A stretch of 64,000 nt of DNA from Saururus chinensis (taxonomy: Eukaryota; Streptophyta; Magnoliopsida; Piperales; Saururaceae), in the NCBI GenBank assembly GCA_035235625.1, contig CP141141.1, forward strand, positions 20,457,968 through 20,521,967, read 5' to 3'. The translations under genes were made by a program, and so were the position numbers. The first letter of the stretch is position 1. Each line of letters begins with the position of its first letter. Below, one piece after another: positions 5,665 to 56,439 of the stretch. The notes beneath the pieces are model-generated. The model did not search any database, was not told where the DNA came from, and saw only the letters and a program-made list of their open reading frames with translations.

Positions 5665-6009
5665 GATCTTTACCATTTTTGGGTTTACAGGCTATATTAT
5701 GTTTTGTTCTAGTATACACTATTGCTCTTTTAGAAATGGATATGAATTTGATTCAGCTTCAGGTTATTTCCGGAAAACTTGACTAGGCATTACTCATTAC
5801 AGCACTTAATCAAACACATATCCTGTAAGCATAATAGAATAATAGTGAATGCATTGATTGTACCCTTTTTGAGTAATCTGCATCAATGTTAGTGGAAGTG
5901 TTTTGATCTTATTCTGAAGTTTAGATTTCCTTTCTGGTAACAATTTCATTACGCTTCTATCAAAGCAGAGAAAATGGTTCAAATAAGTCCAATTTAATAC
6001 ATCAACGTT

Positions 6010-6180
6010 CTTGGTGAAGTCCCATGGCAAGCCCATTCCAACTGCCCATAGTCACTCCTGTTGGTGGTCATAATGCATGGACCCCATTTGGAAGTCAACC
6101 AGGGCATGGTGTAAATATAACTTTGTCTCACCCTATTCACCAACTGGGAAATCCCCCTATTCATCAACTAGGAAATTCTA
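6010..6180 (+). other. Possible second captured exon
   Basis: A short open stretch encodes MASPFQLPIVTPVGGHNAWT and continues to about 6175, with duplicated SHPIHQLGNP/PIHQLGNS units. It has coding-like composition and sits in the same transposon, downstream of the GCP6-like exons. I do not recognise the product. Confidence 0.3.
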
Positions 6181-7287
6181 TGATACGTTTATAATACTTG
6201 GGTGCTGTTTAAATAGAAAAGTAGTGGTTTTAAAGTTGTTGCAATGTTTTGCACATCATGTAAGAGTCCACTTTATTAATTGTGATTTGAGTTTCACACG
6301 AAGAAGTCATGATACTCGCAAGTAATGATAGAAACTGATGCATCTAATTTAACTATTGTAGGCATGCCAATTATTGACTGAAATAAATTAAGATTTATAT
6401 ATTCTAAATACCATGTTCCATCTAGCTTGGGCGTCATTGTATTTAAAAAAGTTAATTTTATAATATAAGTATTTTTATTTTATATGTTAATAACATATTT
6501 AAAGTTACTAGACTCTAGTAAATTATGGATTAGTTACATTTTAGAATTGTAGATAAAATTTGTTTAAGAGTTATTTATTTTGAAATCTGATTGCTCAAAT
6601 TCAGGGATTCTAGTAATATAGGATTTAGGCATTCAAATATTTTGAAATTTAGCAGTTCAAATCCAAGAATTTGGATCATATTTTAAAATTTCATATTCTA
6701 AATCTAGTATTTTAGAATCTTGATTGACTAACCCCCTCTAAGATATTAGTGAAAAAATCAATATTAATCTTACCTTAATTAAACTTTCCTCTTTTAGAAT
6801 GGGGATTAGGGCTTCTTACCTTCCAGATCTTAGCCCTTCCTAAATGAGAATAAAGGTGGAGCTTTCTATTTATAGTAAGTTATGGGGTATACGAATTAAG
6901 AATTGGGGGTACGAATAGAAATATGTACTAAAAATAGGTAATTTGCTCATTTTAGGTATAAAATGAAGTTTGAAAATTTTGAAATACTTTAATAATGAAA
7001 TAAGTCAGGTTTAGGGTCTAGTGGGACCCATCACCCCAATTTACGAACGTAAGGCCCACGGCGGGACCTGCGCCCTAATTTTTCTAAAAATTACCAAAAA
7101 ATTCTAATTTTTTTTGGATAAACTTAGTTTAGCATAAAACCCAGTAAAATAAAGAAAACATTGACTAAAACCATCATTAACCATCTTTAGTCCTAAAACA
7201 AGCCAAACTAGCAAAATTAACATTAAAACCACATAATTAACAATAAAATTAATTAACATAAACCGAATCAGGGTTAGGGATCTTACA

Positions 7288-7604
7288 TCTATATTCACTA
7301 CAAACTTCCTTCCACATATGGTCATCACTTCCTAATTAGAATGATTGATTCTTTGAACTATATACTCCACAATTTTATTTGATTGTTCTCTTATAATCCC
7401 TTTCACTCAGGAAGTGTAAGGGTAACCATGGCCTCCAAAAAGCGAGATTGCTTAACAAAAAATTTTATCACCTCATAAAAAATGGCTGACATTAAAGCCT
7501 ACATGGGTAATCCTCATGCTCCTTCAAGACACTATTTAAAATTTTCTCCATATTTGTAGTCATCATTCCAAATCTTCTAAAATTATCGTGAGCAAGAGAC
7601 CACT
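7288..7604 (-). pseudogene. MULE transposase relic, segment between the two LTR copies
   Basis: Minus-strand reading gives WSLAHDNFRRFGMMTTNMEK followed by LNSVLKEHEDYPCRL. This is the conserved 'D..R.G.MTTN..E..N..LK..R..P' block just after the catalytic core of Mutator-like transposases. It is contiguous with 11097-11990 upstream once the solo LTR and one copy of CCACT are removed, and with the SWIM segment at 655-930 downstream. It contains stops and is a dead gene. Confidence 0.8.
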
Positions 7605-8699
7605 TGTAGGATCTCTAACTTTAAATCGGTTTATTTTCTATTTAATTATGTGATATTGTGTGGTTTTGCTTAAATTGTTAGTTTGACTTGATTTTGGAGT
7701 GAAGGGTTAGTAATTACGGTTTTAACAAGGTTTATTTGCATTTTTATAAGTTTTAATATCAAAATTGATTTACCTAATTTTTATGGATTTTATTTTAATT
7801 TTTCCTAAACTAAGGGTCTGGACCCGCCGTGGGCCCCACATCCACATTGGACGATGTGTGACCCACATGACCCCTAAAGTTCAATTATTTTATATTAGTG
7901 AGTTTTTGAATGATTAAACTTGTTTTAACCCTAAAATGACCCTAATTAGCCACTTAAGGCATTTTTACCCTATTTTATAGCCTAACAATTTGTAAACATA
8001 GCCCAAACACTTACTATTTAGGGAAAAACCCTAGCCACTTGCCCATTTGGGGAAGGGCTATGCAAGGGAGAAGGAGGTGCTCCACCCCCACATCCCAAAG
8101 AGGAAAACCAGATTAAGGTAAGCTCTCTTGCCCCAATCACCCCTAAGCTTTCGATTTAGCTCATAATTCTTCTTATCTTCATTTTCCCCAAAATGGATTC
8201 TTGATTTCTTCCATTAAAAATCTCATTTTTAAATTTGATTTCAAACCCTAAATGAGTTATTTTCGTTTTCAACTAAAGGAAATCATATATCTACCTATTT
8301 TCAAGATAGATTCAAACTTATTAGTTGATTTTAATGAAATATTAACAAAAACCCTAGTTTTGGTAGGATTTCTTGAGGAGTAAAGCTTCTTTGTTGATCC
8401 AATGACTTCATAGAGGTAAGGGGATTTCATCTCATGTGATTTTATCCATTGGGTTGCATGATTGAAGGTTTATGTGGGTTATAGCTTCATTTTGTGCTTT
8501 AATGGTGATTTGTTAAAAGCATGCTATTTTTGTCTATTTTTTTATGATTAAGCATGAGAATGGTTAGATCTATCATGTTTTAGGGTTGTATTTTGATATT
8601 ATGAAGTTCTATAATGATTTAGAATTTATCATGAATTTTTGGGTGTTTTCAATTTGAACTTTGGAAGGTTGAAGATAAACCAGGAAATGGGCAAAAAGT

Positions 8700-8830
8700 G
8701 AACTATTAAGCGTGTTCGAACGGCCCAACAAGCATTCAAACAGCTGACCGTTCGAATGACTTATCTATTCAATCGAATGGCATGACTTTGGAACGGCCCA
8801 ATAGGGCATTCGAACTGCCAAATGGTAGTT
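8700..8830. promoter_or_regulatory. Cluster of TTCGAA-centred palindromes in LTR A
   Basis: Repeated gttcgaacggcc, cgttcgaatg and attcgaactgcc units recur within about 120 bp. Equivalent clusters lie at 3025-3065 and 62870-62960 in the sister LTRs. A similar group lies at 62160-62260 in the unrelated nested LTR. Function is unknown; a regulatory or structural role in the LTR is an inference. Confidence 0.4.
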
Positions 8831-9705
8831 TTTGTGCCTTAGCTCATTTTTGTGTATTTTAGCTGTTTCTTACTCTCTTCTCATAAATCTAATTTTTTAT
8901 GACTAAAATGAGTTATTATTATCTATAAATGCTACTATGATTACATGATAACCATCTTTGGATTATGATTTAGCTCAAGCATGATTTAAACTATATTTGT
9001 TTAAAGTTTAGCATGATATTCTACTTGTCTTAAATTCATGTTTGATAACCACTTCATGATTCCAGTAGGCTTAACCATGATGATGTATATATATGTTTGC
9101 ACATGTTATATTAATTTTAGGTGAATTATGTATTCCATGTTCTAGCTTATGTTATACTTGTCTTGAACTTGTATTTCAATTTTTTCATCACATCTACTCT
9201 ATGATTCCAGTAGGGTAAAACTATGATAAAATTATGGATGCATGCATATATGACATTGAGCATAGTTCATGTTTCACATGTCTTAGCTTAGGTTTAATTT
9301 ACACACTACTACTTATGTATACTCTTGCATAGATGTTTATGATGTTATTGGACACAAATGGACTATGTTTCTTCCACAAGTGGACTGATTTGAGCATTTT
9401 ATTTATACTTGAACTTGTTTAGCAATTGCTCATGTATGTATCATGTGGCATGCATCATGAAAATGATTTATAAATAAGGATTAATTGTGATTATCTGTGA
9501 TTGATCGATTGGATGAAATTGGATGTTAGATTAAATTGTTTGAAGGTTTATCGAATTGGTTTTGGGTCTGAAAGGACATGATTTTGTTTTGTGCTCCTTT
9601 GAGAATATGGTGCCTCCCTGGGTTGAGATGAAGCAGATTGCTATGTGAGTTATTTTATAAGTTTATTTGGATCCTGAGAATCTAAGTGGTTTGTTCATGT
9701 GTATC

Positions 9706-14820: not shown

Positions 14821-17800
14821 ATGGGATACGGCCTTCGAGCAATCCGGGCCTCGCGGACCTCCGCCCTGGCCCGCCTGTGCTCCGCCTACCGCCAGAACCC
14901 CGGCCGCCTCCTCCTCCTCCGCCCGATCACCTCCACCCCCGAGCGCAGCTCCCCCGATGCTGCTGCCGCCGCGGCGCCGGCCGAGCAGCTTGCGTATCCT
15001 GCCCCGGAGCCGCCCAAGATGCCACCCCCGGTCGGCGGGGCGAGGATCCAGATTGCTAACCCGGACGACGCCATTGAGGTGTTTGTGGATGGGTTCCCCG
15101 TGAAGATACCCAAGGGCATGACCGTGCTCCAAGCCTGTGAGGCCGCCGGCGTCGACATTCCCCGCTTCTGCTACCACAGCCGCCTCTCCATCGCGGGCAA
15201 CTGCCGGATGTGCCTTGTCGAGGTCGAGAAGTCGCCCAAGCCCGTCGCCTCCTGCGCCATGCCAGCCCTCCCCGGTCGGTTCCCCAAGTCAATCGATCAG
15301 TACTTGGAATTTGATTATCTTTTATTGACGGAAATTTTGATCTTCCTTTTTTGGGGGGATTTTAGGGATGAAGATTAAGACGAACACGCCGGTTGCGAAG
15401 AAGGCGAGGGAGGGGGTGATGGAGTTTTTGCTTATGAACCACCCTCTGGACTGCCCGATTTGCGACCAAGGTGGAGAGTGCGACCTGCAGGACCAGTCCA
15501 TGGCGTTCGGGTCAGATCGAGGCCGGTTCACGGAGATGAAGAGATCTGTCGTTGACAAGAATTTGGGGCCGCTGGTGAAAACCGTTATGACCCGATGCAT
15601 TCAGTGCACAAGGTTTTGCGTTTACTATTTTTACATTTCATTTTTGGCTGAAATATTGGTTTCGGAGTTTTGGCAGGAGAGTTAATTGGATGGCTTGAAG
15701 AAATTTTTTTGTATTGTGGTGTAATTTGCAACAAACTCATACATAGAAACAATGAACTTCGGATTTTAGTGAATTATGCTCTAGGTAGATCCAGTTTAAC
15801 ATAATTATATTCAACTTAACAGTTTGTAGCTTTTATATTAATTCACAATGGTAGTAGGAGAAGTCAAACACACAGAATTGATAGACAAGACGATGTACTC
15901 CACATAATGCAGTTAACGGAGCTAGCATTTACCATTTTGGAAGTTCAACCAAATTAATAGCAAAGCAATTACAAGAGATAAAAATTAAGTGGATATTTCA
16001 TCTGTGAGGATAATCTTTATTCTACTTTAAGATGAAAGAGGTTCAACTTTGACTATGAACAATCCCCATAGGTGAAATATTGAGGACTGGGTCCTCTTTT
16101 TAAGTAGATGCAGTCCCTCCTGCTAATGCGTGTTCATTTTAGCTTATATAACAAGAAAGTTTTCCAGCTGAGAATTGGAGATTGTATCCGTTTATAGCTC
16201 TCAAAATGAGAATTCAGTATGGTTGTAAAAGAAAAATTTTAGGTCATGTAATGACAGGTACAGGGTGAAATTATGTCTCGCATGATCATTGCTTAGCTCT
16301 AGAATGCATCAGCTTATTAAAAATTGTGTAGGGTAAACAGTATTCTTCAAATTTTGGTTTGCAGCTTCTGCAAAATGGAAGCTTATGTTATATCTCTTGA
16401 TAAAGGGGTTATGTTCCTTTCCAGCTTTGTAAGGATTTGAATTGAAGAATCAGATTCAGCTGAAAATTTGGATTATTAAAATAATTTGGTGAAGTCCACT
16501 CAATATTTTTTCCAATGGGTTGGTATGTGATGGGAAGAAGATGCCTTAACAAGAGCAAGAACTTAAGGAGAATGCAGGAGATTAAGTGTGGGCTGTGTCA
16601 CTGACTGAAGCTATGACATAGGGGATAATTAGATTTTACCTTGCGAACTTCAAGGTTTAATCAAGTTTGTTGAAGAGTTGAGGGATGAAAATTGGTCTAC
16701 CAGAGTTTTTAGGGAGGGTCGTGGATTTTTGAAAATTTGGTCCAAATCTTGTCCAATTCTCACCATATTTCTGCTTTGATTTATGGAAAATCCTATAAGC
16801 ATGTTTCCTGTAGAATAAGTTGTTTATTGCCTACTTTCAGAAGCCACTGACACATCTGAAAGCAGTTTCCCTTAGATTAAATGACATGTTCAAGCTTTAG
16901 AATTTTTAGATAGAGATCACGTGGCATCCTGTCACCCGGATGCTGGATATATCTGCAGGGTTCTATTTGAGAGGCCGTGGCTATTGGATCATCATTTAGA
17001 TCTCATATGCCCCTCAGTTGGGGGTGATAAGTGAGAGTTGTTGGATGACAATTTGACGGCTCACATACTCACCTGGATAAAACTAGCATCTAGATGATCG
17101 GATGCTAGTTGTTTCCTTTTAGTAACTATAAATATAGTAAAGATATCCAGTCGTACGCTTTGCATTGCTCATTCTGCTTTGAGATTTGTTATCTATGTGG
17201 TTGTTGTGTTTAATATTTTTTCTAATTTCAAATGGAATACAGGAACAGGAAAAGAGTGGAAGATGTCATACATCCTGATAGAAAATGTCCTGTAATATGT
17301 GTCAATACTGAAAGCTCAGTGAGTTGAGGAAGAAGAAACAGTTTATTTAGAGCTGTGTGTGTGTAGATAAGAATTTTGTGAGACTGATGTCCTTGTACAT
17401 GTATTTACTTTTGTAGAAAGTAGGTTTTAAAGTAAATTATTGATTGTGCGTGCACATGTTTACCAAATTATTCTGTATTTTTCTGCATATACTGACTCAT
17501 AATAGGTGTAGAAGAATTAAGATAGGAAGCACATACCTGTAGGCACTGTTAATACACATGTTCTGGTAACATTATACCAAATGGTTGAAAATGTTGAAGA
17601 ACATGAATGTGTGAGTAGTTTGGTGTAAATCTTTGTGGCAGATCGTAAGGTCAATAAGTATGCCTGCATGTATGGCAACTGAATTTCATGATCAGTCATT
17701 TCGTTCCTTGTATCTTGCTACTCAAGCGTTTAATACCCTTCATGGTCACTTTTGTCTTTGTTTTACAATTTCCAGTTCGTTGAGATGATCTCTATAAAAT

Positions 17801-20800
17801 CTTATTAATTAAAATCAAATATCCTATTCAACAGGTGTGTTAGGTTTGCTACTGAGATAGCTGGTGTCCAAGATCTTGGCATGTTAGGACGTGGAAGTGG
17901 CGAAGAGATTGGTACATATGTGGAGAAACTTATGACAAGTGAGCTTTCTGGAAATGTGATAGATATTTGCCCTGTAGGGGCCCTCACTTCCAAGCCTTTT
18001 GCATTCAAAGCTCGTAACTGGGAGTTGAAAGGTACAGAGACAATTGATGTTACAGATGCTGTAGGGTCAAACATTAGAATTGACAGCAGAGGCCCAGAGG
18101 TCATGCGCATTGAACCCCGTTTAAACGAGGTGAAATTTTCTGGAATATAGAGGTTTCTTTTTTTTTTTTGTTACAACTCACCCCGCCACGCACACACCCT
18201 ATATATGCCATAGGGCCGATATTCGGCCCTGGAACCTCCTTGTCAGCATTGGGGAGATTCAACCACCTTAACTAAGGTTGGTTTGGCAGAGATTTCTATT
18301 TTGAATATCATTTTTTTGCGTCATTTGTCCGTTACTGCCCATTGATGTAGCACATTCTCTACTTTTTACTGCTTGCAATAGTTTGCCTTTTTAATTTGTA
18401 CTCATATCAAGTAAACATTCTTTGAATAATGAACGCAGAAAATTGTTAATATAGCCTGTCTTTCATTTTGCAGGACATTAATGAGGAGTGGATTTCAGAC
18501 AAAACTCGTTTTTGTTATGATGGTCTCAAGAGACAACGCTTGAGTGACCCTATGATTCGTGGTAGTGATGGCCAATTCAAGGCTGTGAGTTGGCGTGATG
18601 CCTTAGCTGTGGTTGCTGAGGCTGCTCATAATGCTAAACCTGAGGAAATTGTTGGGGTTGCCGGGAAATTATCTGATGCGGAATCCATGATGGCTTTTAA
18701 AGATTTCTTAAATAGAATGGGGTCCAATAATGTGTTGTGTGAAGGAAATGGTGCTAGTCCTCAAGCTGATTTACGCCCAAGTTACCTTTTGAACAGTCAC
18801 ATTAGTGGCCTTGAAAAGGCAGATCTCTTCCTTCTGATTGGTTCACAGGTAAATGTACTCTTGAAAAATGAATGCTTCTAAATTTTTGAAGTTCATTACA
18901 AAGGAGTGTACTGAATAGAATTGTTGTGTTATAGACATGTATCTCTGGTTCACCATTGCAGTATACTTTTTTTTATCCTGCTTGTCATTTTGTTGCAATT
19001 AAGAGGGGCTTGTTCAATATTTTTTTCTACTTGTGATGCTTTATACTACTAATAGCATTTTGAATTTGAGTATCTGAAGTGGATTAATTGCTTAGAAGAG
19101 TCCTGATAATAAAAACGGTTTAATAGCTAAGAAGAGGCCTGATGTCAAAATTTTAAAATTACTTCTGATTGTAAGTGGTTTATATGTTGTATCAGATTTT
19201 ACTCTAATTGTTTCTTTCTCACGATTCAATTGAAATTTTGTGTGTTCCATATGTCCAAATTCCCTACTTGGTCAGGAGTAGTAATAACATGCCTATATTG
19301 CATTAGGAAAATATTTTCAGGATGATCACATTGAGGGAACCGTATCCAATTTACGTTTTTTTTCCTTGGAATTAAATTTAGAGGAACCTTCATCGTCAGA
19401 TCAAACTACAACCTTTAGTTAGCATTGAAACAACAAAAATCAGCATTGTGCTGTTAAAACTATATGTATCTCTCCAATGTTGGTCGTCATATGGATTTAG
19501 AATAAGGTTTTTTTTTCTAAAAGAAGAATTTAGAATAAGGTTCTTTTTCTATTCCAGTACCTTTTCCATCTGTTGTGCAGCACGTATAGAGACTGTTTGG
19601 GTGGCTTCAAGAATCAACAAAGTAACTGATAAGCTTGATAGACTAATGGTAAACTAGGCTTTGGGAGACAAAGAAGAACTCTTTGTAGTTATTGAATAAG
19701 TCAGAATAATATTACAAAGGAGTTGACACAGGTCTAATAAGGGTTACAAGAAAGAGACTTATGTGCTCTTCACTTAAGTGAGGGCGAACCAATAGAAAAG
19801 ACCAATTTACCCCTTATTAATACAAAGCCGACGCAGGACACAAACTCATGCAAATACTCCTCTTAACAAAGCTGATTAAGATGGTTTATATACTTCTAAA
19901 TGAGAACAACGGTTTCACTGATTTCTGGAGGTGTGGACATGTAAATTTCGTGTCTTCAAATGATAAGCAGTCTTCTATAAAAATTACCATTGTGGAAGTA
20001 GATGGTGAAAGTCAGATGTCAGTTGTTGTTTCCAAAACATGAATGTGAAAATTCCTAATGTGATAATAGGCTAATTAAAGCAATTCATAATATAATTTTT
20101 TGTGCTGTTAAGCTTGAGAGAAATGGTTAGAAGTTTTAACTTGACAATCTGAGTTATTATTAACCTTGGGTCTCGGTTTTTCATTGATTATGTGCTTAGA
20201 AATTTTAAGTTGAGCTAGTTTTTTAAAATATTGTGGTAGGGGTATGCTGTGTGATTGAGTTTAAGCAAAATTTGAATGGAAGAAACCTAAAAGTCTACCT
20301 GTACAAATTATATGCTTGAAGAGAAGAATTTGAGATGCAGTTTGTCTTTGTTAGACTTCTGAAATTGTGCTGGAGACTTGTAGCTGAAAGCATGGTGTTC
20401 TTATAGACTATTACAAATCAAAGGTGATAGATTTACTTAAAAGTTTTTGGTCAGTACTACCAGTGATAGGTCAGTTCATCTCAATTTTAGTATTGATTAT
20501 TATTATAAAAAGTATGAGGTGAGACATTTTGCCTTGAAAATATCGGGTTTGTAGCCTGATCTTTGCCATATTCCTAGTGTAATCACGTATGAAAGTTTTA
20601 AAAACAATCAATATATTTTTATGTAAAAGTCATTGCATAAGACATAGCGCCTAGATCACCTTGAGGCACACCTCAACACTAAAAGGTGTGCGCCATGGTC
20701 AAAACTTATGATTTGAGCACCTCCCTTGTTGAGGCATATGCTTTTGGGGTCTTACACCTTGTACCAACACTGTTTAGGACCTTTCTCAATGCTCTCATCT

Positions 20801-21895
20801 TGAATCTTACCTCAAAAATGCTTTTTAAACACTGGATTGGTATGGACTAAAGTTTGCATGCATTGCCATTGTTGAAACCACTGCATTATTCTTATCTCTC
20901 TCTTGCTATCCTGGATGTTCTTTGTATTGGTTAAGAAAAGGATAATTTATGTTTGCTTGTGCCAACTTGTAATTTTCTATGATTAATATTTCTGTTTATT
21001 CCGAGTATTTGGATAAGATTTAATCTTGCTGTCTTTTCTGCTACTTGACAGAGTGAAACAGCAGTGATATGTATCATTGTGCTTGTTTTCAATTGAAAGT
21101 TTATCCCCATAGAGTTTTGATGCTCACAATGCTTTTTATTTATAGTCTGTTTTGTCAACCCATTATTTCACCATCAGAGGCCACAACATTTGGGCCTTTC
21201 ACAATCACCTACCATGGGATGTCATTGGATAGGGTCAATGCGATACAACCATAACCTATTTAATCTGCCCTAACAATATTTAGCGGCTTTTTGCATAGGG
21301 ATTCAAGGGAGGATCCTGCATCCTTGAATCCTGTTTGTTTAGCCATATATGGGGCTTCCTGAATTTTTTTGAAGACATCAAATTCGAGTGCAAACTCTTA
21401 TTTTTTTTTTTGGATACACAGATTCACGTAAAACTGTGAATTTGGGATTCAGGCTTGAACAGTGTTTGATTCTTTACCTTCCAGCATAAGAGAAAATTCA
21501 GCTGGCGTAAGAGTCTAGACTTAAGGGGCTGTTCAGGAAGAACCAGGGAGGATTAAATTTGGGTGAATCCCAATTTCTCCCAAGAATTTTTATCCAAACA
21601 GCCCCCTCTGTATGTATATTTTTAATATATGGATTAACACGTAAACAATGTTGCTGATAATTTGAAACTTTGTAAAGAAAAATATTAACATAATCTTCCA
21701 GAGGGAATTTGTATCTAGAGTTATTAAAGTCAAGAACGATTAGAAGTTTATAACACTTGATGCATAATAGACTCAGTGGCAACCTTACACTTGCTGTACT
21801 CAAGTAGAAAGATTTGAGAGGACTCCGGAGTTTTTTATTTCATCTGTCTAGAATTGTCAACAACACGATTGATTTTGAGTTAACAAACTTGATGC

Positions 21896-21940
<45 letters not shown>

Positions 21941-23146
21941 TGTATGTATATAGATATTATATCGTGATTTTAGAAGGAAACCAGTAGATGTCAGAAACCA
22001 TATTGTATATAAATGAGGCCAGCCTGTCCTATATGCTGTATTTAAAAGGGTAAATTTCTAGTAGTAATGTTTGCTGTCCGTTAAAGAGTAATCTATGTAT
22101 TATTGTTGTATATTTCATGTTATATATTTGTTTCAGGACTTGTGTATGTGGTTAAGCTGTACATATATGTCTTTGCTGTTACTTGTTTTAGATATACAGT
22201 GATAGAACTAATTTTTTTCGTTTTATTATGATAAATTGAATAGCCAAGGGTAGAAGCCCCCATGGTAAATGCCAGAATCCGCAAAACAGTGAGAGCAACG
22301 CAAGCTAAGGTTGCCTATATTGGTCCTCCAACAGAGTTTAACTATGATTCTCAGCATCTCGGTACAAGCCCACAAACTCTTCTTGAAATTGCTGAGGGCC
22401 GCCACCCTTTCTGCTCAGCTCTTGTTTCAGCTAAAAATCCAGCCATTATTCTTGGTGCTGGGATTTTTGAAAGGAAGGACAAAGATGCTATCTTTGCTGC
22501 AGTTGAGGCGATAGCTAAGTATGGAAAAGTGATAAGACCAGACTGGAATGGCTTTAATGTTCTACTTCTTAATGCTGCCCAGGCTGCTGCTTTAGATCTT
22601 GGTCTCATTCCCGAGTCTCCCAATTGCATTGAATCGGCAAAATTTTTGTACCTTATGGGCGCTGATGATGTGGAATTGGACAAAGTCCCTAATGATGCAT
22701 TTGTGGTCTACCAAGGACACCATGGGGACCGAGGCGTATATCGGGCAAATGTGATTCTCCCTGCTACTGCTTTTAGTGAAAAGGAAGGGATATATGAAAA
22801 TACTGAAGGTTGTGCACAATCTACCACTCCTGCAGTTCCTACCGTTGGTGATGCAAGGGATGATTGGAAGATAGTTAGGGCATTGTCTGAAGTTGCTGGT
22901 GTCTGTTTGCCGTATGACACTCTTGGAGCTGTCCGGGCAAGGATCCGTGGAGTTGCTCCAAATTTATTGCGGATGGATGAGAGAGAAGCGTCAACTGTTT
23001 CCACTGCTTTAAAGCCTGATTTCCATGGGAGGCTAGGCAAGGAGCCTTTTGGAATAGCTGTGGAGAACTTTTATATGACAGATTCAATAACTAGAGCCTC
23101 AAAGACCATGGCTCAATGTAGTGCGACTTTGTCAAAGAAGAAGTGA
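14821..23146 (+). CDS. NDUFS1: NADH dehydrogenase [ubiquinone] iron-sulfur protein 1 (complex I 75-kDa subunit), 5 exons
   Basis: Mitochondrial complex I N-module subunit that carries electrons from the FMN site to the arm's Fe-S chain. Exons: 14821-15274, 15366-15612, 17835-18129, 18474-18848, 22244-23146. All introns are GT-AG and the joined frame gives 757 aa, near the usual plant length of about 750. Residues 1-45 are Arg/Ser/Ala-rich, as in a mitochondrial presequence. A plant-type 2Fe-2S domain follows. Cluster ligands are all present: N1b C117, C128, C131, C145; N5 H177, C181, C184, C190; N4 C229, C232, C235, C279. The rest is the molybdopterin-oxidoreductase-like domain, ending [11 protein letters not shown]. 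Exon 1 is GC-rich, later exons AT-richer. Nothing is broken, so this is an expressed gene in all likelihood. Confidence 0.97.
15613..17834 (+). other. NDUFS1 intron 2 (2.2 kb)
   Basis: It splits an Arg codon inside the N4 cluster motif, between TR and CVRF. The donor is gttttgcg and the acceptor ttcaacag. It is AT-rich; I see no embedded gene or clear transposon. Confidence 0.85.
21522..21607. mobile_element. Short MITE-like inverted repeat in NDUFS1 intron 4
   Basis: Left arm ggggctgttcaggaag; right arm, read on minus, GGGGGCTGTTTGGATAAAAA. The arms face each other across about 50 bp, and gattaaatttgggt/gaatccc pairs within. The left flank is TTAA and the right flank is tctg, so a target duplication is not clear. 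The ends resemble Tourist/PIF-type MITEs. Confidence 0.5.
21898..21938. repeat. (TA)n microsatellite
   Basis: About 20 uninterrupted TA units in NDUFS1 intron 4. Confidence 0.95.
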
Positions 23147-23534: not shown

Positions 23535-24751
23535 TAGTGCCCGTTTGTTTCAGCTAAATCTTAATTTAAAAAGTTATCTTGAAAAGCTGAGTTTCTGATT
23601 TAGCTGAATTTGAAGTTGAATTAGCTGATTTTGAATCTGAATTAGTTGAATCTGGTGCAGCAGTAAACAGAAATTCACATAATTGAAATTTATTCAGTGA
23701 GCTTGAAAAACTTCTAAAAGGTGCATTACCATAAGTTTTAATGAAAAATGAGAACTACAGAGTCTGATTAGCTGATGCAAGCATACAGAGTTGTCTCACA
23801 CGAACTTGTGCATTTTTTTCTAAAAAAAATACTAATGCTTTCTTTTCCTATTTATATTGCATTTGGTGGCGTGGATGAGTAGAGGAGTGGGACGATTAAC
23901 TTAATGAAATATTTAGATTACATTTATATGTTCTCTGAGCTTCACAAGCAAAGCTGCAGGACTATCAGTGACGTTACTTATTTGCCAACCTTTATCTACG
24001 TAGTTCCTACTTGAAAGGAAAATCTGTCCGGATCAATAAATAAAAAATCCTATGCTGAAAACATAACGAGACACAAAAACTAAAGGCTGACTTCCCCACA
24101 TTAAATAGGCAGGGAGCCAAAAAATATGCACTTCATACATTAGAAGCCTATATGAATTAGATAAACTTACTCTACAAAAGAAAGATCTAATCTTTCCAAT
24201 TCAGAATATGAACTTTCAATTGCAGAACAATACCAATCTAATTGGCACAATCACTTACGGAAAATAACTCATTCACTTTAACAAAATGCAATAAAGATAA
24301 ATACATATACCAGAATTCTTTAAGTACAATGCCTGTACAGAATTATATGTTCCTTTTCTTTGTTTAATATGTAGTTCCCTGCAAATTCTCAAGGGGGTAT
24401 AATTACAGTGTCCATCGATAAACAAAACCACAACATCTCTTTCTTTTACTAGGTACGGCAAGGATCAAGAAACTCTTATGCCATTCAATTTATTTAACGT
24501 CAACAAAGATTAAATCTACCCATATATAACCCAAACAAGATTAAAAAACACCAAGAGAGATTCATCTTCAAACAATCAGATAATCCCATCTGTTACTTTG
24601 GGGCATTAATTAATTAATGAATGCCTTTATCACAAGTAACAATCCAAGTCAATAGCAATGCCGAGACATACAAAAGAACCAAATCTGCAAGTCGTCCGAA
24701 AACCCCACTCTCCAACACCATGTGCCAAGTCCACTCAACCAATAAACATAA

Positions 24752-24760
24752 ACAAAACAA
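24752..24760. repeat. 9-bp target site duplication of the MULE, left copy
   Basis: acaaaacaa, identical to 30933-30941. Nine-base duplications are the hallmark of Mutator-superfamily insertion. Confidence 0.92.
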
Positions 24761-24880
24761 GAGTTTTTTCCATATTGCATGGCCGAAGACTGAAAATTTT
24801 TATATTCCTTAGATTTTAAACACAAATGCCATCTAACCTGGAATAACACGATATAAGGTCAATTTTGGACAAAAATACAC
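24761..24880. repeat. MULE left terminal inverted repeat
   Basis: It pairs with 30813-30932. Relative to the right arm it has about 25 extra bases around 24845-24865, which include the first ACACGATAT motif. Confidence 0.88.
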
Positions 24881-27429
24881 CAAACCAGAGTTAGGGTTTT
24901 ATATCGTGTAAAACCCTCACAAAGTCGCATTCACAAGCAAATGACTTCCGACTCCGGCAATTCCTTCGTGAGACTCCGTTTCGATTTTTGACCCATCTCA
25001 CCATCGATTTTGTCATTTGGAGCATTGAGCAGCGTTCACACAAAGAGACCATGCTACTAGCGATTGTGAAAGATTAGGGTTTTTTGTTTCTGGAAGGAGG
25101 TTTCAAAAAACACTCCGGCGTTAGTTCCGTTTCATCTTATTTTTGCAAAGTGATTTTGAAACTTTACGCCCCAAAGCAAGTTTCGGCTATGTAGCAAGGT
25201 TCTGTTTGACGCAATCCTGGTAAATGAGTGAACTTTGGAGAAAATCAGCAGCCAATAGAGGGGTTAATCTGGCTTTTATCAGTTTCGTGGTAAGGCTTTC
25301 CCAAAATCTACATTGTATATTTGTATGCATGATTTTTGGTTTGTCATGTATTAGAAGAGACAAAGTAGGCAATTGAAGTAGCAAATCATGTTTCAAAAAT
25401 ACGATAAGTCATATATTATGTGTTTGATAAGACGTTGGCAACACGATATTCTACCGTTGTGATATCGTGTATGAGTGGTCCTCTTCTCGTATATTTGATA
25501 ACACGATATATATATTTATCGTATATAAGGAAGTTAGTTAGATAATGTGAATCAACGCGACTATTGATTATGGTCATGACCCATTGTTGATATACATATA
25601 TCTATCTAATTTTGTAGATATAAAGTTAGAGTATTATAGCAAATGGCGGAGCCAATGAAGGCAGTAGAAGATAAGAAGAAGAGAATCTACGGCAAAAGAC
25701 TACTCCTTACGGTAGATGAAGTGGCAATGATCACGAGTTTGAGTGGAAAATGGAGCCCATGTAAATTAGAAAGTAGCGAGGGAAGACTGCCCAGGTAAGG
25801 GGCAATTCTACAAGAAGTTCTTCCAAGGGAAGTGGCCGGAGAAGATAGGACTTGAAGAAATATTGAAAGAAGTGGATGCCGACACACGGACTGTGTCAGA
25901 GGAGGACTTAGCACAGTTGGCTATTGTGCACATGGGGGTCCTGGTGTTATTCACACAAAGAAACAGATTTGTATCCTTAGCTCTATGTGATTACATAGAT
26001 GACCTGTCACTCGTGGGGAGCTACAATTGGGCTCGGGCCGTGCATGATATGTTGATGTGAGGCATATCATCATCCCATTGGAACATCATGAGCAGACAAG
26101 ATGAGTGCTCCACCACTACCGGAATTCTCGTTGGGGCTTCATTTGTGCTCTAGGTAACTCTCATATTATAGATATCACGATGAATCACATTTTCGTCTTT
26201 CTAATGACATGATATTTCTACAAACACATGTATATCTCCGTATCGCTCACACGATATCAAGTCGATCATGTTTATGAAAATACGAGGTATAACACGCACG
26301 TAGAAATATCGTGTGTGTTGTAAGATGACTAAGTACCATATTGTGTATATAATGTTACACGATAATGGACTATCATGTAATTGATAACACGATGTTGTCG
26401 CAAAGCATGTTTTACGTAACATGATTAAATTGTCATACTTACATTACTGACCAATTTGTTTTATATTGTCCACCAGGTATGGTTTTATGAGCACACGTCC
26501 ATATGGGCTCTCAGTGGTCCTCCATGTAGCCTAAGGTGCAAGAGGTAGTCCAGATTTACCCAACTTTTGAGCAATGTGGAGAAGGCCGTTATGCTTGACC
26601 TTGCCAACGAAAAGGCAAGGAAGAAGTTACTTGCTCATCACCGGATGAGGAAGTTGTATGAGGAGGTGTTCATGCCTTTGAAGCCAGCCTCCCAAGTTAT
26701 TATGCGAATCACACTAATTGCCGAAGAGGCCCACTTGATGGATGGCCAAAGGGAGACCCCGAAGGCAAAGAAGGAATGTAAGCACACAACGATACATAGG
26801 ACAATGAAACCCATCCACGCCCACCACGGTCAGACGTCAGGACATATACAGTCCGGCCAGGACATCATGGAATCATTCGTTATGCCAGTTGATGTCATGA
26901 CCGGGGTTTGTGATGTTATTTTGGAGAAGGTTGCTCTATACAGGGAGCAGGGATGGAACACTGAGAGAGTTGAAGTTGCGCTCTAGCGGGTTAAAAAGGA
27001 TAAGGAGGTGGCAATAAGCCTCATAGAACATATGCAACCCCCACAAGAACTAGAGACAAATCGACCGCATGAACCCCCTCAACTGGAAGTCCCTTAAGAA
27101 AGACAATTTTGTTGTGGTCGTGTGAATGATCACAAGATCATTGAAATAGACATTTGTTAAGAAAATGATCTAGTTGTGGTTGTGTGATTGTTAACAGATA
27201 AGGCCTTTTATCATGTTTCAGTCAATACGACATTGTGATATATTGTGTAATATAAAACACAATGGACTTGCATATCATGTATGTGCTAATGCTATTTCTT
27301 ATTTCTAATATGCAGAAAAAAAGGCAGCTAAAAGCTACCTCTCCAATAAAGAAGAAGATGGGTCCGAAGTAGGAAAGGACCATGATAACAAGATTTTTGA
27401 AGAAAATATATGAAAAAGTTGTATAATCC

Positions 27430-27600
27430 CGGCCCGTCAAGGAACCAACCCGGGAGAAGAAGGAAAGAGCCCAGGAGGTCTAGAGAGAAACCCTGGAGGT
27501 CTAGGAACACTTCCGGGAGGACAAGGAACAACCCCTGGAAGGACCGGAACAACCCTTGGAGGGACCAAAATAACCCCAGGAATCAAATAAAGAATAGGAA
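27430..27600. repeat. Coding minisatellite in the ULP1-like gene
   Basis: Units of about 24-27 bp (ggaacaacccctggaaggac and variants) repeat six to seven times within exon 3. In one frame they give Gly/Pro/Thr-rich repeats (PGGLGT, PGGQGTTPG), in another Arg/Asn-rich ones. It is probably an expandable linker between the DUF1985-like and protease parts. Confidence 0.75.
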
Positions 27601-28251
27601 CACACAAATAAAGAAGAAGTTCCTCAACAAAAATTTAAACTGAAATTAAAGTGGAAAGCTACCTCTGTCGCACCCTTCCTACCTCTAGTGCCTCAGAAGC
27701 CAAGGTACACCGTCGTTAAACCACCTGCTCAAGGTGAGGAGCTGGCCAAGAAGGTGGCCACTCAGGGATCGACAAAGATGAAGCTTTTCAGTAGCTACGT
27801 GGAGGAGAAGCTAGCCAAGTTTGGACCTACGGAAATTGTGGAACATAAGGCAAAGGCAGGTGATGAAGTTCCTTTGGCATCTATCCTTGGCCCATACATT
27901 ATCCCTCCAGCACAACCAAAGTCTCCCACACCGGAAGTGATGAGCTCAGATGTCTGATGCAGTAGTAGCACTGCATCAGGTCCACCTCCAGTTGATGGGG
28001 AAGTACTACAGAGTATCAGCAAGGTGATTAACATGGAAGAGCACACTGCACAGCGAACAAAAATGGAGGAGGTCTGTATGATGCCACACGACTATCTTGA
28101 CACGGAGTTGGTGTTCCACATTAAGATTATGAAGACTGAAGATAAGGACGCCATCATGGATTTTCTGGCATACCCATACAAGCAGTGGCCCATGGTGACT
28201 CTCCTCTACACCGACTACCTATCTCTGTTAAAGCTAGAGAGCATAATGAAT

Positions 28252-28556
28252 GGGGTACTATCATTTTCTTGATGATACATTTTAAGAAATCACATGTCAT
28301 TAATCACACGATAACAAAAAATACGAAAGTGAACATTTATATATCGCTTTATCGGTAACACGACATTTGCTCATATCGTTGTTTGCATAATACGCTAAGT
28401 TTCGTCTCAATTGTTGATGTATGCATAGCATGTTGGTTAATACAAAACTTGTAAATTTAATGTGTTATCGGTCGTATGATATATCCACTTATCGTGTGAT
28501 GAATGTCACGACCTGTCGATCATCGTGTTATGACTAACATGATTATTTTTTTGTAG
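28252..28556 (+). other. Intron of the ULP1-like gene filled with ACACGATAT repeats
   Basis: Donor gtactatc follows ...LESIMNG and acceptor tttttttgtag precedes VIDVFFQLL. Together they restore the expected start of the C48 domain without a gap. Nearly the whole intron consists of the degenerate palindromic motif. Confidence 0.75.
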
Positions 28557-29524
28557 GTAATAGACGTCTTCTTCCAACTACTTGAGGAACACAATCTGAG
28601 ACATCCAGGCACCTACCCCAACTATTTTTTCGGCAAGTTTGCCATTTAGCACTATTTTAGCATTGGGACGGTCGACGGTCTAGTAGAGAAGGAGGGAAAA
28701 CTCGTTGACATATTGTTGAGAGGGTTGAATGTTAACACGGAGAGTGGTTTCATTCCAATCTACGCCATGGGCCACTTTCTCTTGCTTATTGTCCAATGCA
28801 GGGAGAAGAGGTTTAGGTGGTACAACCCACTAAAGGGTGAACACAGCCACCACTTTGCATACGCGAACAAGATAAGGAAATATGTTGCATAGGGAATGGA
28901 GAAGGCCCTTCGCATAAAGGGTGCAACAAAGTGGCCAATGACTAAGATCAACAAATGCCTATATCAAGAAACAAATGAAGATTGTGGTGTCTTCCTCATA
29001 TACTACATAACGAAGATGGTAGGGGGCATGCTTCAGCCTGATTTTAGACAAATGGAGATAACATGCTTGATCAGGCCTCAAATATGTGCTGTAATTCTTA
29101 TGGCCCGAATCGACAATGAATTTGATCCGGATCCAGATGAATTGTAATTAGATAATTGACATTTTACATTATTTACTGACAAAACATAATTAATTGACAA
29201 CTTTGTTTTATTTTTTATGCCATATTGTGTAAATTCTCCACTAGAACTGAACTACATCTTGTTATCATGTTTGTTTTTAAATGAATCTGCATTCAATCGT
29301 GTGTATAAATGCCACGTTATTACTTGGATATAGTTGGCCATTGATGATGTCGTGTATTTGATCAAATGATATGTATCACTATTGTGTTCCAGAAATTGTG
29401 ATAACGAAAGAAACTTTAGCCCAGCATATTATCGATATCACGATTGTCACTTAGGTCGTGTTATCGTTCAAACGACATCTAGTATATCATATCATTGGTC
29501 CCACAAAATGACGCACAACATATT

Positions 29525-30600
29525 ATTGTTCATGTCCAATGCAGTTGCTATCAATAACTATCCAAGATACTTTCCTTTCAAGAAAGTTGCATCTACAGTT
29601 ATCAACAGCCTCATTATCGTACCACTAATCGTCACCCTAGATATTTTCAAGTTCTTCACCTTCTTCACCGTCGTAATTACAAGGGATGTATGGAGGTTCA
29701 TAGTTATCAAATGAAATCCTTGTCCCACGCATTGTTGGCGACAATTCCTCTAATCTATTCTGATTGACTTCTATTACAGGTTCTGTAGTCATTCAATTGG
29801 TGAAAGATGATTGACATGGATTTCTTGATGGCAAGTTTCGCAGTTCTCCCAATCTGCATTGCACATTATTGTGTTAAAAAAATGCGACATCACTTGACTT
29901 CGTGTATTTGGTTACACACAATTCAAATCGTGTTATCGAAACCATGATATGAATGCATGTCATGTTATTACATCTACGCTGAAAATCATTATTGATACAT
30001 CACATGTGTATGTCGTATCATTACTAATGTGATATATTATAAATCATGTTTCTTTCTTCACATGATATGATTTGAACATCACACGATATATTCTATATCG
30101 TGTGCTAGAGTACACGATAAAGATCAATCTCGTGTATTCTAAAATTTTGTTGTTACCTGACAATTTCGAATGTGAACTGCATTTCATTGACTTCGGTTTG
30201 AAATCCGACATTAGAGCTCGGCTGAGCCAATACAACCGGTGAATTAGCTCTATTGACCATCTAGTTCCTTTCTACGGATGATGATTTATCACTATTGTTG
30301 AGTTCTTTTATCTCAGCATACAATTATAACACCTCCGTATTCGCCCTCTTATGAATGGAGAACACTGATTGAAGGTCCTCATTGTCTTGTAATTCATATG
30401 TTATGGATTATTGTGAAGATAGAATTAAATACTTCAAAGTGACATTACCATTGACAACAAGTCTTGCTTCAACTTGAACCAGCACCTTGCCAAACCTCAC
30501 TGACATAACAATGTTCATCAACCGTGCCTTTCCACATATATACAAGTCATTATTGCCTACCTCTTCATTATAATGTATGAAAATACCCATCCTATCCATA
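29525..30600 (-). pseudogene. MULE transposase (MURA-like), truncated and decayed
   Basis: Minus from 30600: MDRMGIFIHYNEEVGNNDLY begins a MULE N-terminal domain, followed past a stop by SITYELQDNEDLQSVFSI and VNRANSPVVLAQPS. A spacer with ACACGATAT repeats (29880-30120) follows. Then at 29610-29530 comes VDATFLKGKYLG, a stop, and LLIATALDMNNN. This is the block carrying the first catalytic Asp of the DDE core. Everything after it (second Asp, Glu, SWIM finger) is missing; the next sequence belongs to the 3' side of the ULP1-like gene. The element therefore cannot mobilise itself. Confidence 0.82.
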
Positions 30601-30812
30601 ATTGGTGTAAAAGGGGGATCAAATCTATAAATTGTAGTATTTGGAGCCCTCTAACAACGTCTTCGGTGTCAAAAAATACTTTTTTTCTTACTGAAGGATG
30701 CTCGCCGGGGAGTCACCATCGGTCACCTCCCACCGGCGACTTCCCACTGGCCACCGATGAATCCCAGCACACCAGAATGGTGCAACACTATTCCGGTGTT
30801 CATTTATTTTAT

Positions 30813-30932
30813 AATATATGGGATAGTAGAAACCTAAGGGCAATTTTGTCCATAAACAGGTTATATAGCATTTGTGTTTAACTAGGGAATATGGAATTTT
30901 TCCATCTTCAGCCAGGCAATGTGAAATCACTC
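30813..30932. repeat. MULE right terminal inverted repeat
   Basis: It pairs with 24761-24880. The outer end is followed by the 9-bp duplication acaaaacaa at 30933-30941. Confidence 0.88.
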
Positions 30933-30941
30933 ACAAAACAA
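30933..30941. repeat. 9-bp target site duplication of the MULE, right copy
   Basis: acaaaacaa, identical to 24752-24760. Confidence 0.92.
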
Positions 30942-31433
30942 TCCACACTTTGAAGTGTGAAAGGCTAAAATACTCAGCAAAGCACAATTCACAATCGAAA
31001 GATTAGTTCACAAATAAATCCAAGTTAATAACGATCTCAAGACACACAAAATCACCCAATTCAACAAATTTTCAGAAAAGCCCAATTCCGACCACCAAAT
31101 GCACCTAGTCCACTCAACCAACAGATAAAACATAAGTGATCAACAGAAAGAAGTGAAAGAAGAACTAACATACATCATCAGATGAAGATTGGACAATCAA
31201 TTTAAAGTAACGACACATAAATTGCAGAGTTGAAAAAAGAAGCACCCTTGTCCATGCTAGTTGCTAGTAAAAGTCATAAACATTATTAGTGTAACAGAGT
31301 TCAACTGATTTAAATGAAGCATAAATTTAGTAAAGTCCGTTAGAGATTTAAGAACGATAAATTCATACAAATTAAATGAAGCTTCCAACAACAAAAACTA
31401 GCAGAAATGAATTTTTGAACACAAGGCAAGTAC

Positions 31434-48239: not shown

Positions 48240-48606
48240 GAAGACGATGGGACACGAAAAAAGCCGGATTTCGTATCGCCCGATACGAACCACAAAACCC
48301 GCCACAGCACGCGACACACGCGTACCAACCGCTTTCCACGCTGTGAGCACGGCCGCCACGCTCTCCAGTTCGGATATCTTTTTTCCTTCCTCCTTATCCG
48401 TGCCGGGGCGGAGCTCCCGACGGCTGCAGACAAGAAGCTCAGTCCAGCCAGTCGCTTCTCCATTTCTTCGTCAGAGAAAGATTTTCATTGAATTTTTCGT
48501 TTTCATTCAGTCTTCCATTAATGGAAAATTTCCATTTGTTCATCGCTTGTGGCTTTTGATGGGATTTGCTGCCCAAATACGGGTTTAAAACGAAGTGGGT
48601 GGCAAA
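48240..48606 (+). promoter_or_regulatory. Proximal promoter and 5' leader of TPS
   Basis: Contains a pyrimidine-rich stretch (atcttttttccttcctcctt at 48376) and ends gtgggtggcaaa before the ATG. Short upstream frames are present, including a 113-codon one, but I have no evidence that they are used. The transcription start is not determinable. Confidence 0.4.
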
Positions 48607-51451
48607 ATGGTGTCAAGATCCTACTCCAACCTGCTGGAGCTGGCCTCCGGGGAGTCGTCGTCGCCGAGCTTCGGCCGGATGCTGCCGTCGCGACGCATCC
48701 CCCGCGTGATGACCGTGGCGGGCATCATCTCCGACCTTGACGAGGAGGAGGAGGATGCGGGTTGCCAGTCCTCCGCGGCGTCCTCCTCATCGCCCAAGGA
48801 CCGGCTTATCGTCGTCGCCAACCAGCTCCCCATCACTGTGCGCCGAAGCCCGTCCGGCAGCGGGGGGAGCGGATGGGAGTTCGCGTGGGACGACCAGTCC
48901 CTCCTCCTCCAGCTCCGGGAGGGGCTGGGGGAGGACGACGTGGAGGTCTTCTACGTCGGCACGCTGAGGGAGGAGATCCCCATCGGCGTGCAGGAGGAGG
49001 TCTCCCAGACCCTCTTGGACAAGTTTCGATGCGTGCCGGCCTTCCTCCCGCCGGACCTCCATTCCCGGTTCTACCACGGCTTCTGCAAGCAGCAGCTCTG
49101 GCCGCTTTTCCATTACATGCTCCCCCTCTCCCCGGACCTTGGCGGCCGCTTCGAACGCTCCCTATGGCAGGCCTACGTCTCGGCCAACAAGATCTTCGCC
49201 GACAAGATTCTGGAGGTGATCAACCCGGAGGAGGACTTCGTATGGATCCACGACTACCATCTGATGGTCTTGCCCACCTTCCTCCGCAAGCGGTTCAACC
49301 GGGTGAAGCTCGGCTTCTTTCTGCACAGCCCCTTCCCCTCCTCCGAGATCTACAAGACCCTCCCGGTGCGGGAGGAGCTCCTCCGGGCGCTGCTGAACTC
49401 GGATTTGATCGGATTCCACACCTTCGACTATGCCCGGCACTTCCTCTCCTGCTGCAGCCGGATGCTGGGGCTGACCTACGAGTCCAAACGAGGGTACATT
49501 GGGCTTGAGTACTACGGCCGGACCGTCGGGATCAAGATTCTCCCGGTGGGGGTTCACATGGGCCAGTTGCACTCGGCGCTGAGCCTGCCGGCGACGGAGG
49601 CGAGGGTCTCCGAGCTCTTGAAACAGTACCGGGACCGGAATCAGGTGATGATGCTAGGGGTGGATGATATGGACATCTTCAAAGGCATCACCTTGAAGCT
49701 CCTGGCCATGGAGCAGCTGCTGCTGCAGCACCCCGAGTGCCGCGGGAAAGTGGTGCTGGTTCAGATTGCCAATCCGGCGAGGGGCCGGGGGAAGGACGTG
49801 AAGGAGGTGCAATTGGAGACCCACGCCACCGTGAAAAGGATCAATGAGACCTTTGGGAGAGATGGGTATGAGCCTGTGGTATTGATTGAGCAGCCACTCC
49901 AATTCTATGAGAGGATGGCCTACTATGTTGCAGCAGAATGCTGTTTGGTGACTGCTGTGAGGGATGGAATGAATTTGATCCCTTATGAGTACATAATCGC
50001 AAGGCAGGGGAATGAGAAGCTGGATACTGTATTGGGGTACAGCCCCTCGACCCTGAAGAAGAGTACATTGGTGGTCTCAGAGTTCATAGGATGCTCGCCC
50101 TCTCTCAGCGGCGCCATTCGGGTGAATCCGTGGAATATAGACGCGGTGGCGGATGCCATGAATCATGCCCTGGAGATGGAGGAACAGGAGAAGCAGATGA
50201 GGCATGACAAGCATTACAGGTATGTGAGCACCCACCATGTTGGTTACTGGGCTCACAGTTTTCTGCAAGATTTGCAGAGGACGTGCAAGGATCATGTCCA
50301 CAGGAGGTGCTGGGGGATTGGATTTGGGCTGGGGTTTAGGGTCGTCGCACTCGATCCAAGTTTCCGGAAGTTGTCTATGGATCACATTGTTTCAGCATAT
50401 AAAAGGACCAAGATTAGGGCGATTCTTATGGACTATGATGGCACCCTGATGCCACAATCGGCAATTGACAAGAGCCCAAGCAGTAAGTCGATCGAGATTC
50501 TGAACAGCTTGTGCAGGGATAAGAACAATTTGGTCTTCCTAGTCAGTGCAAGCAGCAGGAAGAATCTCAGTGAATGGTTCTCTCCTTGTGAAAAGCTGGG
50601 GATTGCATCTGAGCATGGATACTTCTTTAGGTAAAATCAATACCCCTCCATCAATGTTGTCATTTCTATTTGGATCTGTTATTTGAAATTCAACTATTTC
50701 ATTGATATTATTTGGTACTCGAAGTCGTGGTATTTATGCCTGTCAAATTTGTAGGGTGAGAAGAGATGCAGAATGGGAAACTTGTGTGCCAGTTGCAGAC
50801 TGCAGCTGGAAACAGATTGCCGAGCCTGTAATGAGGTTGTATACTGAAACAACTGATGGATCTACAATTGAAGACAAAGAGACTTCATTGGTCTGGTCTT
50901 ACCAGGACGCAGACAAGGATTTTGGTTCTTGTCAAGCAAAGGAACTTCTTGATCATTTAGAGAGTGTGCTTGCCAATGAGCCAGTGTCTGTCAAGAGCGG
51001 CCAGAACAGAGTGGAGGTCAAGCCTCAGGTCTGTTGCTATCCATATACTGCATCTCTTAAGTGATAAATATCTTGTAGTCAGTCTTATCATGATGATTTA
51101 TGAAATGGTCTCCTATGGCATATGCAGGGTGTGAGTAAGGGCCTTGTGGCTGAGAGACTGCTCTCAACCATGAGGGAGAGGGATATGCTACCTGACTTCG
51201 TTCTTTGCATTGGGGACGATAGATCCGACGAAGACATGTTTGAGGTGATAGCAAGTGCTGCATCAGGCAGTTCTCTGTCCCCGACGGCAGAAGTGTTCGC
51301 CTGTACTGTGGGCCGAAAGCCTAGTAAGGCGAAATACTATTTAGATGATACCACTGATATTGTGAGACTGATGGAGGGCCTGGCTACTGTTTCACAGCAA
51401 CCGCGGAGCCATCCACTTCAGAGCTCGCGAAATATGCTGTTGCATCTATAG
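48607..51451 (+). CDS. TPS6: Class II trehalose-6-phosphate synthase/phosphatase-like protein (TPS6-like), 3 exons
   Basis: Exons 48607-50630, 50755-51028, 51128-51451, all introns GT-AG, joined to 873 aa. The start is the ATG giving MVSRSYSNLLELASG, the usual class II N-terminus; an in-frame GTG 12 bases upstream is not needed. After an acidic linker comes the GT20 synthase-like domain (about residues 60-545: LIVVANQLPI, HDYHLM, LHSPFPSSE, RDGMNLIPYEY). The HAD phosphatase-like domain follows (about 595-850: DYDGTLMP, GDDRSDEDMF). Class II members are generally catalytically weak or inactive and act in trehalose-6-phosphate and SnRK1-linked sugar signalling in the cytosol. The three-exon structure with a huge first exon is typical of class II. 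GC content falls steeply along exon 1. TPS5/TPS6 cannot be separated with certainty. Confidence 0.95.
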
Positions 51452-56421: not shown

Positions 56422-56439
56422 CATAAAAAAGAAGACATG

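Follow-up and report, generated by a model that had tools for sequence, protein, structure and literature searches.

An alternating 16-bp lattice of a short word in the non-coding DNA of a Mutator-like element family encoding a DUF1985-Ulp1 protein in Saururus chinensis

The window analysed here is a stretch of 64,000 nucleotides of the Saururus chinensis genome (C2:20457968-20521967; positions below without a contig or locus name are those of the window). It contains a 6.2-kb Mutator-like element (MULE) with terminal inverted repeats (TIRs), from which most of the transposase gene has been deleted. We found that the non-coding DNA of this element and of its relatives in the genome (516 Mb searched, in 11 contigs) carries a short word, best described as ACACGATA with a central CpG, whose orientation alternates every 16 bp, the same orientation returning every 32 bp. 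Sequence comparison suggests, with a probability that we put at about 0.6, that the DUF1985-Ulp1 protein encoded by the MULE family is an anti-silencing protein of the VANC/KIU kind that recognizes a specific sequence, and that this array serves as its cis target.

The word was recovered with no prior motif, since comparing the k-mer counts of the element with those of the remaining window sequence placed ACACGA, ACACGAT, ACACGATA, and ACACGATAT on top. Exact copies of ACACGATA number 13 in the element and 0 in the other 57.8 kb of the window, and those of ACACGATAT number 9 and 0. The original prediction held that the motif occupies the non-coding parts of the element and spares its exons, and proposed a comparison with shuffled sequence. 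With 500 dinucleotide shuffles per segment as the control, ACACGATAT at ≤1 mismatch has 24 sites in 3513 bp of non-coding DNA (shuffled mean 2.25, maximum 8) and 0 in 2659 bp of exons (shuffled mean 0.32), as predicted. At ≤2 mismatches the contrast is weaker but kept, with 55 non-coding and 4 exon sites (shuffled means 20.95 and 5.49). Enrichment is seen in five of the six non-coding segments, where the observed count is reached in 0, 0, 2, 4, and 0 of the 500 shuffles. The sixth, 30141–30932, was first counted as non-coding and has 0 motif sites. This gap is largely explained because more than half of the segment is a coding remnant of the transposase gene (30264–30677). An expectation-maximization motif search gave diffuse AT-rich forms of the ACACGATA-type word in both non-coding halves and a different word in the exons.

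The sites lie in several separate places. A copy at the left TIR had been predicted, and a subterminal pair (24846–24910) is indeed found just inside the 80-bp repeat, with a plus site at 24846 (+85 of the element) and a minus site at 24902 (+141). At least one of the two is kept in 8 of 8 left ends (the window and 7 of 9 relatives having a left end). Arrays recognized by their motif sites follow upstream of the first coding exon (25384–25524, with the lattice), in intron 1 (26175–26394, where a majority sequence built from 12 copies also has the array), in intron 3 (28306–28528), between the two convergent genes (29223–29492, with the lattice), and between the transposase pieces (29867–30135, likewise). 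In gap 2, five alternating sites at ≤2 mismatches succeed one another in 16-bp steps (27209–27280).

The motif had been described as a degenerate palindrome; the recurring word is real, but the alternating lattice of ACACGATA was overlooked. At ≤2 mismatches the window has 75 sites, with 22 opposite pairs at exactly 16 bp and 18 same-orientation pairs at exactly 32 bp. The exons together with 30141–30932 have 21 sites at this threshold, with 0 pairs of either kind. At ≤1 mismatch there are 4 opposite pairs at exactly 16 bp and 7 same-orientation pairs at 32 bp, the maxima among 300 permuted words being 1 and 3. If the distance is allowed to vary by 1 bp, there are 9 same-orientation pairs at 31–33 bp (random 0.55) and 5 opposite pairs at 15–17 bp (random 0.54), counts reached in 0 of 4000 random placements. 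The match to the word at ±16 and ±32 bp from the strict sites is raised (means 0.40, 0.52, 0.42, and 0.42; expected 0.27), and it is not raised at ±8 and ±24 bp (0.28–0.31). At ±48 bp, it is raised upstream (0.36) and is 0.28 on the other side.

A DNA search with exon D, the Ulp1 exon of the element, listed 41 places, which besides the window have 81–88% identity (best 40 of 736 candidates scored). We took as relatives 17 loci of 10 kb with 81–83% identity to exon D, leaving out the 20 closest. The comparison of family members that had been proposed as a check gave a similar contrast. Taken together, the 17 relatives have the word at 7.49 sites per kb in non-coding DNA (503 in 67142 bp, a class that still includes some unannotated sequence) vs. 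0.86 in the DUF1985-Ulp1 gene (35 in 40841 bp) and 0.88 in the transposase (5 in 5670 bp). At ≤2 mismatches, opposite pairs in these loci are most frequent at 16 bp (328, the median over distances being 16) and form a lesser peak at 48 bp (92), and same-orientation pairs peak at 32 bp (205, median 15); these pair counts are not independent, because the arrays are inherited. The lattice is also present in majority sequences of pieces aligned among the copies (intron 3 in 39 and 33 copies, intron 1 in 12, and a 5' piece in 11). There are 9 opposite pairs at 16 bp in intron 3 (in the alignment of 33 copies), 4 in intron 1, and 4 in the 5' piece, vs. 0 in the majority sequences of exons A, B, and D; that of exon A has 2 single sites at ≤1 mismatch.

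The distances between CpGs, for which no word is used, show the same pitch. In non-coding DNA, they peak at 16, 8, and 32 bp (243, 209, and 176; median 71), and no such peak is found in coding DNA. The spacers of divergent sites tend to TATCGATA, with 4.36 of 8 matches vs. 3.03 in convergent spacers (47 and 31 pairs), and thus the divergent unit nears the palindrome TATCGTGT-TATCGATA-ACACGATA. Part of the 8-bp CpG peak fits this spacer. In the whole genome, the exact convergent pattern ACACGATA-N(0-30)-TATCGTGT occurs 538 times and the reversed-pattern control 10 times. Among the matches listed (50 distinct, all on contig 1), the gap is 7 bp in 21, 8 bp in 14, 9 bp in 3, 28 bp in 4, and 29 bp in 2, with six single values, so steps of 15–16 bp predominate (gap 7–8 bp in 35 of 50). 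Viral and prokaryotic contig collections, which have little bearing on plants, contain 0 copies of an exact three-unit lattice, and a tblastn search of a plasmid collection, of equally little bearing, gave no match.

The gene content of the family is seen best in relative L035, an element of about 9.5 kb (58–9589) whose right TIR was found and whose left limit we infer from an alignment beginning at base 5 of the window element. In it a minus-strand MULE transposase faces a plus-strand gene that begins with DUF1985 and ends with Ulp1/C48. The transposase matches PF10551 (E = 6.2e-13 in L035 and 8.3e-12 in L041), and DBD_Tnp_Mut is below the cut-off in L035 (E = 9.2e-4). DUF1985 is above the cut-off in relative L037 (41.3 bits vs. 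35.1, E = 2e-10). A sequence search of the PDB with DUF1985 gave nothing convincing (best E 1.2 and 0.21), while the Ulp1 domain matches SENP5 (E 5e-5). An AlphaFold2 model of the DUF1985 core, built from 17 aligned fragments headed by L037, has a mean pLDDT (predicted local distance difference test) of 60 and a pTM (predicted template modeling score) of 0.31.

The window copy (24761–30932, plus strand) is an internally deleted member of this family. MULEs make target-site duplications (TSDs) of about 9 bp. The window element is flanked by identical 9-bp copies of ACAAAACAA at 24752–24760 and 30933–30941, read beside the TIR ends. The left TIR (24761–24840, 80 bp, plus strand) and the right TIR (30857–30932, minus strand) were delimited by local alignment of the two ends and by BLAST (79% identity over 73 columns). 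The exon limits are from reading frames and homology rather than transcripts. Exon A (25643–26151, plus strand) is the DUF1985 region; its frame is broken, and its PF09331 match at 25770–26057 is below the cut-off (E = 3.8e-4, 20.9 bits vs. 35.1). Exon B (26479–27096, plus strand) is a coding frame with 72–91% DNA identity to the relatives and no named domain. Exon C (27316–28256, plus strand), recognized by its reading frame and by the relatives, is a linker coding region with no Pfam match that is broken here; its counterpart in relative L040 is a 316-amino acid frame without stops. Exon D (28557–29147, plus strand) contains the Ulp1/C48 peptidase domain and two in-frame TAG codons. If these are read through, it matches PF02902 above the cut-off (E = 3.8e-9), as do stop-free frames of L048 and L040. 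Two adjoining transposase remnants lie on the minus strand at 29510–29774, found by tblastn with the L035 transposase frames. The remnant at 30264–30677, also on the minus strand and the first coding piece by position, was found with the L035 frame 8903–9328, in which a Pfam scan gave no match. Measured against relatives such as L038, the window copy lacks about 200 bp of exon A and about 240 bp downstream of exon B. It is a broken and decayed copy, with in-frame stops and a transposase that is mostly lost. A short tandem repeat lies within the coding region at 27525–27582, and likewise at 2778–2927 of L050, another DUF1985 gene of the genome; these resemble the variable regions with repeats that have been reported in VANC proteins (PMC5735166).

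Two further loci were found by a narrow exact motif pattern. One, L001, is a diverged relative with 67–80% identity to stretches of exon D. The other, L002, contains a 2.0-kb element (428–2467) whose ends are 68–75% identical to those of the family, and whose flanks, when scanned for a TSD, showed none with ≥8/9 matches. It has 27 motif sites in a dense array of about 1 kb and no stop-free frame longer than 85 amino acids, as would be expected for a target acted on in trans. Elsewhere, a stop-free DUF1985 match (C1:32350012-32350401) and an exact convergent pair of the motif (C1:32350587-32350607) are 0.2 kb apart; they possibly mark a better-preserved relative.

DUF1985 matches number at least 150 in the genome (best 150 of 957 candidates scored), and we sampled 5 kb around two others, L050 and L051. 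They have no DNA similarity to the lattice-bearing family at E 1e-3, and the word occurs in them at 0.80 and 0.40 sites per kb, at or below the shuffled level. A 200-bp tandem repeat of 4.8 copies occupies 1–957 of L051, directly upstream of its DUF1985 gene; it is perhaps the target array of that gene itself.

The original prediction offered a binding site for the element's own protein as one explanation, and the sequence evidence supports this best, with VANC of VANDAL MULEs as a closer comparison than the TNPA that was named. The DUF1985-Ulp1 protein of the family would bind the ACACGATA sites in either orientation. Alternation at about 16 bp corresponds to 1.5 helical turns and the same-orientation repeat of 32 bp to three turns, a geometry that would suit a symmetric, cooperative assembly. 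The bound protein, with some contribution perhaps from its Ulp1 domain, would keep or make the non-coding DNA of the element unmethylated, and its genes could then be expressed, so that autonomous and non-autonomous copies remain mobile. The sites would be placed where coding constraint allows, with the conserved pair at the end where the DUF1985-Ulp1 gene would have its promoter, and copies such as L002 may use the protein in trans. A more specific form of this proposal is possible, although we hold it only tentatively and consider it somewhat less probable than its negation. It states that this is a TIR-bearing MULE family whose DUF1985-Ulp1 protein assembles cooperatively on a strict alternating lattice of about 16 bp, made of a palindrome-forming word (TATCGTGT-TATCGATA-ACACGATA) in a geometry unlike the same-orientation arrays of VANC21, and that non-autonomous copies with little beyond terminal repeats and lattice ride on it.

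Several observations weigh against an anti-silencing target. The specificity of the word was assessed in two other DUF1985 genes, a sample too small to speak for other families. DUF287, the second VANC domain, appears in no Pfam result, where broken fragments only were scanned, and the 80-bp TIRs of the family differ from those of VANDALs, which are degenerate (PMC10398659). A 6-mer count made without the word in single relatives gives no clear inverted peak at 16 bp, so the lattice is visible only through the word or the CpGs. With CpGs excluded, motif columns are conserved at 0.895 vs. 0.857 for spacers in intron 3, 0.897 vs. 0.860 in intron 1, and 0.906 vs. 0.910 in the 5' piece. Motif columns are thus not clearly more conserved than spacers, selection is not proven, and the conservation of arrays among copies does not prove it by itself. 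CpG transitions make up 11 of 20 motif mismatches in the window and 116 of 422 in the relatives. We considered this decay as a footprint of protection by a protein and rejected it, because CpGs in exons are lost about as fast as those in the motif; the decay is thus a general mark of methylated, decaying copies. Finally, the array could serve the transposase instead.

In that last alternative, which we consider unlikely, the motifs would be sites at which the family's transposase, or an accessory protein similar to TNPA, acts in excision and suppression. The conserved pair directly inside the left TIR is what this would lead one to expect, as TNPA recognizes subterminal repeats in its own element (PMC2613891). 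However, the sites in the window are mostly internal, in introns and between genes, while TNPA sites are subterminal (PMC2613891). Among the right ends, 0 of 4 have a site at the matching positions, and 2 of 4 have one elsewhere in the first 200 bp.

It is similarly improbable that the array is a neutral minisatellite, which slippage and gene conversion spread through non-coding DNA wherever it was tolerated. L002 does have higher-order repeats, seen as direct 6-mer peaks at 161 and 95–96 bp, motif and spacer columns decay about equally between copies, and the targets of VANC proteins grow as tandem repeats too (PMC5735166). Nevertheless, the identity of window spacers at a lag of 32 bp is 2.69 of 8, near the 2.21 given by composition, while the word and the 16/32-bp pitch persist. 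Moreover, one word is found in several separate non-coding regions and stands at chance level in the two other DUF1985 genes. Intron growth by slippage, which the original prediction had also suggested, is insufficient alone. As to its further suggestion of expansion from a terminal motif, what the left ends show is simply conservation of the subterminal pair. Slippage and gene conversion may be how the array grew, rather than the reason for keeping it.

Recruitment of a host transcription factor that drives the element genes is very unlikely. Sites are present upstream of the DUF1985-Ulp1 gene, but the arrays also fill introns and intergenic space, and chance-level occurrence in the other DUF1985 genes of the same genome argues against it as well. 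We give almost no credence to RNA or DNA hairpins with 8-bp stems and 8-nucleotide loops, which closely spaced opposite orientations would permit, since neighboring arms show no greater complementarity than arms of these sites paired at random (5.64 vs. 5.67 of 8, 22 pairs, P 0.61), and structure alone needs no single common word.

Outside the element, a direct repeat of 72.5% identity is present at 24630–24757 and 31008–31135; its left copy ends at the left TSD, and its right copy begins 66 bp past the right TSD. Judging by eye from the frames, we take 14821–23146 to be a complex I 75-kDa subunit-like host gene and 48595–51064 a trehalose-6-phosphate synthase-like host gene; the frames at 55492–57802 presumably belong to a Copia element.

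How does this family compare with known systems? The original prediction knew of no description of such a pattern, but there are published cases. DUF1985 is a domain of the Arabidopsis VANC anti-silencing proteins, and VANC21 occupies a short motif in the introns, intergenic DNA, and terminal non-coding DNA of VANDAL21 (Hiun) (PMC5735166). Ulp1-carrying VANDALs (KIU) are also described as recognizing motifs in the non-coding DNA of their own kind, in a 2026 review that cites Sasaki 2022 (PMC13317346). The pattern is therefore known in kind.

Kaonashi elements, or ULP-MULEs, of Arabidopsis, melon, rice, and grapevine have a Ulp1/C48 gene that runs opposite to their MULE transposase gene, as in the window family. 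The KI-MULEs of Arabidopsis are called non-TIR, whereas the window family has TIRs, like some ULP MULEs of melon (PMC2528002). The En/Spm CACTA system has repeats recognized by a transposon protein, TNPA, and activation of Spm by TnpA correlates with demethylation (PMC10398659). However, TNPA sites are subterminal, while those of the window family lie in introns and between genes, and the superfamily and the protein differ (PMC2613891).

The VANC systems are the closest. VANC6 is a related protein whose targets are also short words, AGTTGTCC and AGTTGTAC, tandemly repeated in the non-coding DNA of VANDAL6; the word is a different one, and the parts of PMC5735166 examined do not mention an alternating lattice. 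In VANDAL21, as in the window family, a MULE encodes a DUF1985 protein and has a family-specific short word dense in its non-coding DNA. The VANC21 motif, YAGTATTAY, has a single orientation, and its regions are often tandem repeats (PMC5735166), whereas ACACGATA alternates every 16 bp in a family with 80-bp TIRs and a Ulp1 domain. A meeting report mentions an unpublished crystal structure of VANC21 (PMC8756742), to which our PDB sequence searches gave no match.

The window family thus differs from these systems in its word and its TIRs and in the geometry of its array, with a fixed pitch and an alternating orientation. The novelty of the geometry is provisional: we found no prior description of the alternating 16-bp lattice in the literature searched, outside which lies the most relevant paper, Sasaki 2022. 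Two questions are treated as open in PMC5735166, namely by what means a short word lets a VANC-type protein recognize a long target, and how the protein and its word change in step with each other. Here the fixed alternating pitch leads to a concrete geometric prediction, that the assembly is symmetric and repeats every 32 bp, and the genome contains many copies on which to test it. If the array is indeed the target of an anti-silencing protein, the pattern known from VANC would extend to a MULE that has ordinary TIRs and encodes a Ulp1 domain.

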